A DNA stretch of 64,000 nucleotides, taken from contig NZ_CP041186.1 of NCBI RefSeq assembly GCF_006517175.1, positions 1,639,001-1,703,000 on the forward strand. The letters run 5' to 3'. This DNA is from Persicimonas caeni. Its GTDB lineage: Bacteria > Myxococcota_A > Bradymonadia > Bradymonadales > Bradymonadaceae. Below are positions 22,178-26,306 of the stretch, in pieces (positions within the stretch are counted from its first letter, which is position 1; every line of letters starts with the position of its first letter). The position numbers and the translations under genes were made by a program. Under the pieces are notes generated by a model. That model was given only the letters and a program-made list of their open reading frames with translations. It searched no databases and was not told the origin of the DNA.

Positions 22178-22461
22178 GGGAGCCTCCTTCGAGCAAGCAT
22201 TGGCTTGCGGTTTGAAAAAAGATCAATCTGTCGGGATAGGTACATTGCGAGGTTCGTGCCAACGCCATAAAAAACCGGATCATACGCCCGAATGCGCCCG
22301 TGAAGGGGTCCACGCCGGGATCGTGAGTGCAAATTTTGCGCTCAAGGGGGATGCCTGCAAAATTTTCTTCGGGTCGTCCGGGGCAATTTCTTTCACAAAC
22401 CTCGTGCGCACCGATATGATCGCGCCGACCCTGCATGACGACGCATTAGGAGCAGTACGCC

Positions 22462-24954
22462 ATCGAAGTTTCGTGTCCCGGTTGTGAAAAGCGCTTTCGG
22501 CTCCGGCCGGCCCAAGGGCAAGATCTGCCTGACGAGGTCCCCTGCCCGCGCTGCCACCACCCCATCGACGTGCCCAAAGAATCGCACGGATGGGTCAAGA
22601 CCGAGATCTCGACGATCTTCGAGCATCCCGACGCGCCTCGCCGCCCCGAAGACCGCCCACGACCGCAACCCGAAGCCGAACAGCCGCGGCGCGTATTTCG
22701 TGACGTGACCCGCGTGGGACGGCCCACCGTCGGGCTGGGCGGTGACGAGGCCGACCCGATCGACGAGGCTGACGAGGCTGACGAGGCGAGCTCGGCGAAG
22801 GTCGCGGAGCCCCCGAAAGAAGAAAAACCGTCGACGAGTACGCTCCTCCAGCGACTGCGTGAGCTCGAGCCGGGACGACTGAGGGCGCCGAAAGCGGAGC
22901 CCGACGAGGCTGAGTCCGACGAGGCTGAGGAGCGCGAGGCGCACGAAGATGCGCTTACGGAGGCGATCGAGCAGGACCTGCTGTCGATCGCCGACGAAGT
23001 GGCGAGTGTGGTGACGGAGACGGGGACGGTCACGGAGACGGAGACGGGGCCGGAGCCGGTCACGGTCACGGAGACGGAGACCGGGAGCCGGGCGCCGGAC
23101 ACCGGGAGCCGGCCGCCGGACACCGGGAGCCGGCCGCCGGACACCGGGAGCCGGGCGCCGGACACCGGGAGCCGGCCGCCGGACACCGGGAGCCGGACGC
23201 CGGACACCGGAAACCGGGCGCCGGACACCGGGAGCCGGGCGCCGGACGCCGTTTCTTTTACAGGGGCGGATCGCGAGGGCCCCTGGCCCATACGCGTCGA
23301 AGAGGTCGTGTATGATCCGGTCGACGAGGACGCGCTCGCCACGCTCCTGAAGTCGGGTGTGTGGCTGGCCGTCATCGAGTTGCGAACGCAAAGCGGCCAT
23401 TGGATTCCGCTCGAGCAGCATCCGGCATATCCAGATGTGCGTGAGCGCCTGCTTCGCCAAACGCAACAGATTGTCGAGAAGGTCGCCACCGGCGAGTGGT
23501 CTCGAGACAGCGTCCGCGCGAGCAGTCCGCCTCCCCAGGTGCCTGCGCCCGCTCCGACTCCGACTCCTGCGCCGCCCGAAAAGCAGACGATTTCGCCGCA
23601 GCCCCAACCTCGGCCGACCTGGCCGACGTGGGTTTACGGTACGCTTTCGATTCTCGGCGGCGTCGCCCTGGCTGTCGTCTCGCTGGCGATCGTCATCCCG
23701 ATGGTCCACAAGCCGGCGCCGACAAAGCCCCAACCCGCCGCCAAGCTCGAGGGGCCGCGGCCGGTGCTGACCGTACCGCCACCGTCGGAGCCCACCGACG
23801 AGGACTGGCGCAAGGCCATCGCCAAGGCGCGCGGGCTGGTCGCGAAGGCGCGGCGCGCCGACACGTTTGCCGACGCGCTCGTCGCCGCCGAGCGGCCCAC
23901 GATGGCCCGCCAGGTGGTGCTCGAGGCGATGATCGAAGACGGCGTGACGCCCTACTACAAGCGCGCGTTCAACGCTGCGATCGCCGCCGACGAGACGCTC
24001 CATCCCGACACGACCCACATCGGCATGGACGTCAAGGTCGACGCCATCTACGCGCTCGGCGGCGGACGCTCCATCTCCCTGCGAATGACCCGCGGCGGCA
24101 AAAACGCCTTTGCGTTCAAGCCCGCCCAACACGAATGGGGCAACGGCTGGCGCGGCGAGGTCGCCTCGTATCTGTTCTGCGAGATCGTCCCGTGCGGGTT
24201 CGAGGTGCCTCGAAACCGCGCCGCGCGCATCAGCAAGCCGCGCTTCCAGGGGTTGTACGGGCGGGTAAACGGCAACTGGCAGTCCAAATACGCCCAGCGC
24301 TTCGAAGCGCTGCACTGGACCGAGGAGAAAGGCCCCGACGGCGTCGTGCGCCCGTACCTGTACGGCACGCTCAAAGATTGGGTCCCCCACTTTGTGGACT
24401 GGCCGATCGAGTACACGCAGGTGTGGGAGGACTGGCTCGACGTGCGCTTCCACCCGGCGAACCTCGACGAGCCGTACGCCGAGGCGATCGCTCCGCTCGA
24501 GCGCCTCGGCGGCGGCAAATTCCATAAGGACGCCCTCGCCGAGCAAGGCGACGCCAAGTTGCGCGACGTCGCCCGACAGCTCTCCTCAATTTTGGTCTTC
24601 GATTACCTGACCCAGAACTGGGACCGGTTTAGCACGAGTTCGAAATACTACGGCGTGAACAATCAATTCGCCGACGGCCGGTTCATCTCCCTAGACAACG
24701 GCGCGGCGTTTTACGACGAGCCGATGCCCGACGTCGGCCCCCGCTTCGAGAAGACGAGCCGGTTCAGCCGCTCGATGATCGTGGCGGTGCGCGCGCTGGA
24801 ACCCGAGGCGGTCGACGCGGTGTTGTTCCCCAACGCCGACCGGATCGACAAGCGCCGCCTCGAGCTGTTCTGGAAGCAGCGAGACAAGCTTCTCGCCCGT
24901 GTGGATAAGCTTGTGGAAAAGTACGGCGAGGAGCGTGTCTACGAGTTCGAGTAG
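22462..24954 (+). CDS. Zinc-ribbon, membrane-tethered FAM20/four-jointed-like kinase
   Basis: An 830-residue protein read from ATC 22462. Residues 1-35 form a zinc ribbon ('[11 protein letters not shown]' and '[12 protein letters not shown]', two CxxC pairs). A long acidic disordered region follows, including eight TGSRxPD repeats (residues 207-262), then one membrane helix at about 390-415. The C-terminal half matches the FAM20C/four-jointed secretory-kinase pattern: Lys553 in 'AFAFKP', Glu566 in '[19 protein letters not shown]', catalytic-loop '[10 protein letters not shown]' with Asp721, and metal Asp745 in 'SLDNGAAF'. The zinc ribbon should be cytoplasmic and the kinase outside. The first conventional start, GTG 22570, would delete the zinc ribbon. 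AGGAG lies nine bases before the ATC. Substrate unknown. Confidence 0.75.
23080..23247 (+). repeat. Coding minisatellite, 8 x 21 bp
   Basis: Eight uninterrupted 21 bp units, each encoding TGSR(A/P/T)PD, inside the disordered linker of the kinase-like gene. One unit has AACCGG in place of GAGCCGG, giving Asn. Most differences fall in one codon, so copies have been added recently or homogenised. The unit length keeps the reading frame whatever the copy number. Confidence 0.92.
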
Positions 24955-24990
24955 ACGCTTCGGTGCGAATGCATTCCTGCTCTCGCTAAC

Positions 24991-25217
24991 GAGGGCAAGA
25001 TGCCCCCGCACCGATTCTCGAGGGCAAGATGCCCCCGCACCGATTCTCGAGGGCAAGATGCCCCCGCACCGATTCTCGAGGGCAAGATGCCCCCGCACCG
25101 ATTCTCGAGGGCAAGATGCCCCCGCACCGATTCTCGAGGGCAAGATGCCCCCGCACCGATTCTCGAGGGCAAGATGCCCCCGCACCGGTTTTCGAGGGCA
25201 AGATGCCCCCGCACCGA
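24991..25217. repeat. 29 bp tandem array, 8 copies, each with a hairpin
   Basis: Eight head-to-tail units with starts at 24991, 25020, 25049, 25078, 25107, 25136, 25165 and 25194. Each contains GGGCAAGATGCCC, a five-base-pair stem GGGCA/TGCCC around AGA, followed by CCGCACCGATTCTC. Units 1-6 are identical, unit 7 has GGTTTTC, and unit 8 diverges at its end. The array fills the gap between two convergent genes. Open frames across it are artefacts of the repeat. Confidence 0.95.
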
Positions 25218-25879: not shown

Positions 25880-25949
25880 ACCCTAAACCCTAAACCCCCA
25901 AACCCTAAACCCCCAACAAACCCCTACACCCTAAACCCCCAACAAACCC
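25880..25949 (+). repeat. CCCTAAA-rich low-complexity leader
   Basis: About 70 bp made of degenerate CCCTAAACCC and CCCAACAAACCC units, running straight into ATG 25950. It has almost no G on the plus strand and no Shine-Dalgarno. A similar tract precedes ATG 52566. Confidence 0.85.
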
Positions 25950-26306
25950 ATGTCCTGGCATCCGCACCCGACCGAAATCCGCGCCCTCGAAGACGAGGGT
26001 ATCCTGCGCATCAAGTTTAGCGACGACGAGGAGTTCGACTACGACACCGTCATCCTGCGCGGCTACTGCCCCTGCGCCGTCTGCCAGGGCCACGGCAGCC
26101 GCCCGCTCAAGTGGAACCCACCCAAACGCAAGTCGCAGATCGTCGTCGATGATATCGGCCAGGTGGGCAACTACGCGATGTGCATCGCGTGGGAAGATGG
26201 GCACAACACGGGGGTGTACTCGTGGGAATTCTTGCGTGAGATCGTCGAGAAGCCGGAGCAGATCTTCGAGGAGTGGCCGGTGGAGTTTGAAGGTTTGGAT
26301 TCTTGA
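25950..26306 (+). CDS. DUF971 (GBBH-like N-terminal domain) protein
   Basis: A 118-residue protein matching the DUF971 family, the small N-terminal domain found in gamma-butyrobetaine hydroxylase. It shows 'LRGYCPCAVCQGHG' with a CxCxxC cluster likely to bind metal, 'VGNYAMCIAWEDGHNTGVYSWEFLREI', and a preceding 'LRIKFSDDEEFDYD' strand pair. Bacterial stand-alone members have been linked to Fe-S proteins and Mrp-type carriers, but no such neighbour is here. The start directly abuts the CCCTAAA-rich tract and has no ribosome-binding site. Confidence 0.88.
   Translation: MSWHPHPTEIRALEDEGILRIKFSDDEEFDYDTVILRGYCPCAVCQGHGSRPLKWNPPKRKSQIVVDDIGQVGNYAMCIAWEDGHNTGVYSWEFLREIVEKPEQIFEEWPVEFEGLDS

Follow-up and report, generated by a model that had tools for sequence, protein, structure and literature searches.

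A Fam20-like kinase domain joined through a membrane helix to a zinc ribbon in Persicimonas caeni and its bradymonadal relatives

A 64,000-nt stretch of DNA from the predatory bradymonad Persicimonas caeni (the window; the genome is one contig of 8,047,206 bases) contains a gene that raises an unusual question: does this bacterium hold a kinase akin to the secretory-pathway kinases of animals outside its inner membrane, tied to a zinc ribbon on the inner side? A preliminary description, made from the letters of the DNA, had read the gene in this way, as a FAM20/four-jointed-like kinase linked by a single membrane helix to a repeat-rich linker and an N-terminal two-CxxC zinc ribbon. We observed that the parts of the protein follow in the order zinc ribbon, disordered repeat-rich linker, GYF-like module, Pro-rich stretch, membrane helix and Fam20-like kinase domain (Table 1).

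Table 1. Features of the kinase gene and its product, in positions of the window.
Feature	Position	Strand	Evidence
Whole coding sequence	22462..24954	+	830 aa; open frame 22450-24954; orthologous architecture in relatives
AGGAG ribosome-binding site (22448-22452) and inferred ATC start codon (22462-22464)	22448..22464	+	Orthologue in L032 alike
Zinc ribbon CxxC-x19-CxxC, Cys 5/8/28/31	22474..22554	+	Pfam Zn_ribbon_4, E 2e-4; Cys invariant in 9 relatives
21-nt repeat, 8.4 copies, coding GSRxPDT, cytoplasmic linker	23075..23251	+	TRF
Second cytoplasmic module, GYF-like, residues ~277-341	23290..23484	+	Conserved in 33/57 paralogue N-termini; AF2 pLDDT 89
Single membrane helix, residues 390-414	23629..23703	+	Kyte-Doolittle mean 2.63 over 19 residues
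Fam20-like kinase domain, residues 463-830	23848..24951	+	AF2 pLDDT 96.1, pTM 0.94; Fam20C Z 18.4
Glycine-rich loop LGGGR	24055..24069	+	GGG invariant in 17-member alignment
ATP-binding Lys553, in FAFKP	24118..24120	+	Aligns with FAM20C Lys285; residue naming from PMC4421793
Ion-pair Glu566, in WRGEVAS	24157..24159	+	Aligns with FAM20C Glu311; PMC4421793
Cys573 and Cys578, possible disulfide	24178..24195	+	Only two cysteines of kinase half
Catalytic loop NWDR with Asp721, in NWDRF	24616..24627	+	FAM20C Asp458
Asn733, probable second metal ligand	24658..24660	+	Invariant in 17-member alignment; role inferred
Metal-binding stretch LDNGAA with Asp745, in SLDNGAAF	24691..24708	+	FAM20C Asp478

The span first assigned to the gene lies in the correct frame, which closes with a stop codon at 24952-24954, but its first codon is ATC and not an ordinary start codon. 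No ATG, GTG or TTG occurs between the preceding in-frame stop (22447-22449) and the first cysteine of the zinc ribbon. An automatic ORF call starts instead at GTG 22570 and cuts the ribbon off, and standard gene callers would begin the gene at the same codon and lose it. Because the orthologue in a relative (L032) has a matching AGGAG and ATC layout, initiation of the window gene at AUC is likely, as judged from sequence, and the count of 830 residues takes ATC 22462 as the translation start. Counted in this way, the protein has exactly six cysteines: the four of the zinc ribbon plus a pair in the kinase half. Directly downstream, between the kinase gene and a minus-strand oxidoreductase-like gene, a 29-nt repeat stands in about eight copies set end to end (24990-25217); a CRISPR reading of these is ruled out by the lack of spacers between copies, and pieces resembling the repeat seem, by eye, to be present elsewhere in the genome (L147). 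A telomere-like, CCCTAAA-rich stretch (25880-25949) lies upstream of an ORF at 25950, whose orthologue sits directly downstream of the kinase gene in L032.

In the N-terminal half, the zinc ribbon is present as first described, with its four cysteines conserved, and scores 21.6 with Zn_ribbon_4, which is below the curated cut-off of 30.3; matches to this model are common in the P. caeni genome, occurring at nine places. Among the top PDB hits of the ribbon, the sole near-full-length one is a weak match (E 0.014) to AgmX (GltJ) of Myxococcus xanthus (7zok). The linker does contain repeats, yet it is not linker alone, since residues ~277-341 form a conserved folded domain: BLAST among the N-terminal halves returned two conserved blocks, residues 1-41 and ~272-350, in a numbering that starts four residues upstream. 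The closest structural matches of this second module are TIC/TOC proteins (Z 6), ahead of recurring GYF domains (Z 3.6-4.6) that include the GYF domain of M. xanthus GltJ (7z3c, Z 3.8), and we found no Pfam or PDB sequence match that would identify it as GYF. Because the GYF scores fall below those of TIC/TOC proteins, we treat the GYF-like identity, suggested by the predicted model, as a lead only. A third P. caeni protein (L148, 305-2254; genome 4629204-4631153) carries a zinc ribbon, two GYF-like modules and a C-terminal membrane tail, without a kinase domain.

The single membrane helix of the preliminary description is likewise present and strongly hydrophobic. Across the family, lysines and arginines in the 15 residues flanking the helix number 149 before it versus 65 after it, and an orientation with the N-terminus inside is therefore favoured. 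Homologues from other families of the class have lipobox-like starts (e.g. L043, L044, L045 and L080) and those from Polyangia begin with Sec-like or lipoprotein signals, as called by eye and by hydropathy without a dedicated predictor. In addition, lipoprotein-like genes lie directly 3′ of the kinase gene in seven relatives, of one type in L034, L056, L057 and L077 and of another in L062, L064 and L067. Taken together, the charge bias, the signals of the homologues and the downstream genes support the proposed placement of the kinase outside the inner membrane and of the zinc ribbon inside, which we therefore adopt as the predicted topology.

The predicted structure of the kinase half relates it to Fam20. 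An AlphaFold2 model built with a 40-sequence alignment has a kinase fold, and the first eight Foldseek matches were Fam20C or C. elegans Fam20. In VIA-align, the nine best PDB entries were all Fam20 (Z 17.5-18.4), led by Fam20C over 272 residues with an rmsd of 4.2, with Fam20A and hydra Fam20 both at 18.1; outside Fam20 came PI4KII (Z 15.6), CtkA (14.9), HipT (12.2), CotH (11.6) and HipA (11.3). Sequence profiles gave the same answer: a single-sequence PDB search returned only noise, and PF06702 on its own had no match in the P. caeni genome, so that a family profile was needed, but the profile of all members found only Fam20 chains up to E 10 (human FAM20C, E 6e-5), as did a profile of copies like A, the paralogue type represented by the window protein (human FAM20C, E 4e-7). 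The resulting alignments pair the lysine, the glutamate, the catalytic aspartate and the metal aspartate with those of FAM20C in order. The suspected likeness to FAM20 is thus borne out by structure and profile alike, with CotH and HipA far behind in fold.

The motifs on which that suspicion rested also hold up. The ATP-binding lysine, the catalytic loop and the metal-binding aspartate are present in the order described, and the glutamate of the GEVASYLF motif is present and conserved, although it corresponds to Glu311 of FAM20C and not to the special Glu306 of Fam20. A search with the kinase half alone hit 34 of 58 relatives, among them every one of the 21 genomes in the same family, and the five residues (Lys, Glu, Asp, Asn and Asp) are all invariant in a 17-member alignment; on this sequence evidence the motifs are not a product of chance.

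The window kinase is nevertheless Fam20-like and not a strict Fam20. A Fam20-specific loop carrying the metal-binding Glu306 is essential for FAM20C activity (PMC4421793), and the spacing between lysine and glutamate is 13 residues in the window protein and the bacterial alignments versus 26 in FAM20C, from which it follows that the loop is absent, as it is from the aligned Myxococcota relatives. The Fam20 kinase core contains four conserved disulfides (PMC5865150), whose cysteines are missing here; the kinase half has the Cys573/Cys578 pair alone, which is retained in nearly all bradymonadal copies of both paralogue types. Finally, the window protein scores 11.9-13.1 bits with the Pfam Fam20C model, below the curated cut-off of 26.8. 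The metazoan secretory-pathway kinases Fam20C, Fam20A and Fam20B (PF06702) are the closest solved fold, sharing the lysine, the ion-pair glutamate and both aspartates as well as an outward (luminal) kinase domain, whereas the window protein differs in being bacterial, in its own cysteine pair and in its fusion to a membrane helix and, beyond that, to a GYF-like module and a zinc ribbon.

Other Myxococcota bridge this distance. Of the 379 genomes of the phylum, 43 contain matches to the Pfam Fam20C model, 32 of them above its curated cut-off, and the homologues that pass it include secreted proteins or lipoproteins (L110, L116-L119 and L102) that have a homologous domain, the same catalytic residues and secretion signals, with a zinc ribbon in none of those read. 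Plain phmmer aligns L110 with human FAM20C at E 7e-19, across a region that includes a C-terminal DPLTPVL..HLEALDRR stretch and flanking cysteines, and it scores 24.9 bits with the Pfam FAM198 model against a cut-off of 25. A profile of eight proteins over the Fam20C cut-off in turn matches the bradymonadal profile at E 6e-31. Because of these two links, we place the window protein, on sequence grounds, in a bacterial branch of the Fam20 superfamily. In two lipoprotein-type homologues outside the main family (L079 and L080), glycine replaces the ion-pair glutamate, possibly a separate loss of activity.

Our 40-sequence profile has matches in 113 of 379 genomes of the phylum, or about 30% of sampled Myxococcota. 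A pattern scan of genome contigs from 84,980 species confirmed 59 loci, whose titles all fit Myxococcota, although the patterns are bradymonadal and the scan is only a light test outside that phylum. The fusion of zinc ribbon, transmembrane helix and kinase is conserved in Bradymonadales; the architecture singled out as unusual is therefore real, but it belongs to a bacterial family and is not unique to the P. caeni genome. A phage or defence gene was considered and rejected, with no PHROGs or PADLOC match, no relative on viral contigs and, for L110, none on plasmids.

Within the family, the kinase comes in two forms with one and the same domain layout, copy A (the window protein) and copy B, both detected in all 21 genomes, some as fragments at contig ends. 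In an 83-row tree, the family's copies B form one side of a branch with SH-aLRT 97, and A and B together are supported at 100, indicating that the two stem from a single duplication. The lysine, glutamate and both aspartates are kept in 19 of 19 copies A with a complete domain, and the glycine-rich loop in 18 (one has TEG). Copies B have lost the glycine-rich loop, and every scored copy B (21/21) lacks at least one of the four residues, with the residues lost differing by lineage; P. caeni copy B (L031) keeps both aspartates and the lysine but has serine for the glutamate and a broken glycine loop. The retention of the fold where catalysis is lost suggests that copy B is a pseudokinase whose role is structural or regulatory. 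By analogy, the pair of active Fam20C and decayed Fam20A (PMC4421793) resembles A and B. Copy B adjoins DUF4159, VWA/GATase1-like and DUF72 genes in several genomes, and in P. caeni it lies between a VWA/GATase1-like membrane protein, itself after a DUF4159 gene, and a DUF72 gene (L031, 2119-9660), an order common to several relatives. For copy A we found no conserved operon: the window holds no partner, and neighbourhoods vary among relatives save for the downstream lipoprotein-like genes in subsets.

The best explanation, to which we assign a probability of roughly 0.72, is a Fam20-like kinase that is tethered to the membrane, lies outside the cytoplasm and has a pseudokinase sister. The window protein would be a type II membrane protein with its N-terminus inside, holding an atypical Fam20-superfamily kinase domain in the envelope, on the far side of the inner membrane from the cytoplasm. 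By analogy to Fam20 in the Golgi lumen, it would most likely transfer phosphate to envelope or secreted proteins or their glycans, and the zinc ribbon and GYF-like module would probably position or gate it via a cytoplasmic partner. Copy B, by analogy again, is probably a pseudokinase partner or regulator of A. Against this explanation count the departures from a strict Fam20 described above (Pfam score, Glu306 loop and disulfides), the unexplained supply of ATP beyond the inner membrane and the lack of a conserved operon that would name a substrate.

The substrate class is where a competing reading enters, namely a kinase acting on something other than protein, whether lipids, as for PI4KII, or glycans, as for Fam20B. 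In fold, PI4KII comes directly after Fam20, hydra Fam20, a xylosylkinase, ties with Fam20C, and the fold itself gives no readout of substrate; the sequence profiles match Fam20 and not PI4K, which weakens the lipid version and leaves the glycan version untouched, and we regard this reading as possible though doubtful. It is unlikely that copy A is instead a nucleotide-binding scaffold, or a transferase of another kind (AMP or glutamate) as some kinase-fold proteins are: the Glu306 loop is absent, the sister copy is clearly degenerate and we know of no periplasmic ATP source, but the lysine, glutamate, catalytic aspartate, asparagine and metal aspartate are fully conserved in A and not in B, which implies selection on catalysis. 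A HipA- or CotH-type kinase is very improbable despite the broad shared superfamily and weak HipA_2 Pfam matches in some Polyangia relatives, as CotH and HipA fall 6-7 Z units below Fam20 with no sequence match, the topology is outward and a hipB partner is absent. CotH, a spore-coat kinase earlier compared with Fam20C (PMC12189002), is also an atypical bacterial kinase working outside the cytoplasm, but differs from the window kinase in its fold score.

For the cytoplasmic half of the proposed membrane-tethered kinase, the nearest precedent is GltJ/AgmX, a gliding-motility membrane protein of M. xanthus in which a zinc ribbon is likewise combined with a GYF domain. GltJ uses these two modules in a switch responding to MglA, and it is not known to carry a kinase domain. 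The likeness is weak in both ribbon and GYF-like module and may reflect shared module types only. In the P. caeni genome, an MglA-like GTPase gene (MglA identity by eye) adjoins a Robl_LC7 (MglB-like) gene; since GltJ responds to MglA and P. caeni has such a GTPase, control of the window protein by MglA is possible, but speculative. A far-reaching version would have Bradymonadales run a two-part system of envelope phosphorylation, in which an outward Fam20-like kinase is activated by its pseudokinase sister and both are positioned via zinc-ribbon and GYF modules that read MglA, and would derive the animal Fam20/Four-jointed kinases from this bacterial family of Myxococcota; we consider the whole of it a long shot.

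In one survey, FAM20 was called a eukaryote- or Metazoa-specific cluster (PMC9758233), and the evolution of Fam20 has been told within animals (PMC5865150); among the papers searched, we found none linking Fam20 with Myxococcota. Database entries for some of the bacterial proteins may already have automatic Fam20C labels, which would make the occurrence of the domain less novel without touching the novelty of the fusion and the paralogue pair. With clear bacterial relatives in hand, the origin of the secretory kinases becomes open to direct test. Bacteria, for their part, gain a candidate means of phosphorylating targets beyond the inner membrane, which raises the question of the phosphate donor there, and the recurrent pairing of kinase and pseudokinase would offer an independent test of activation of the Fam20C/Fam20A type.
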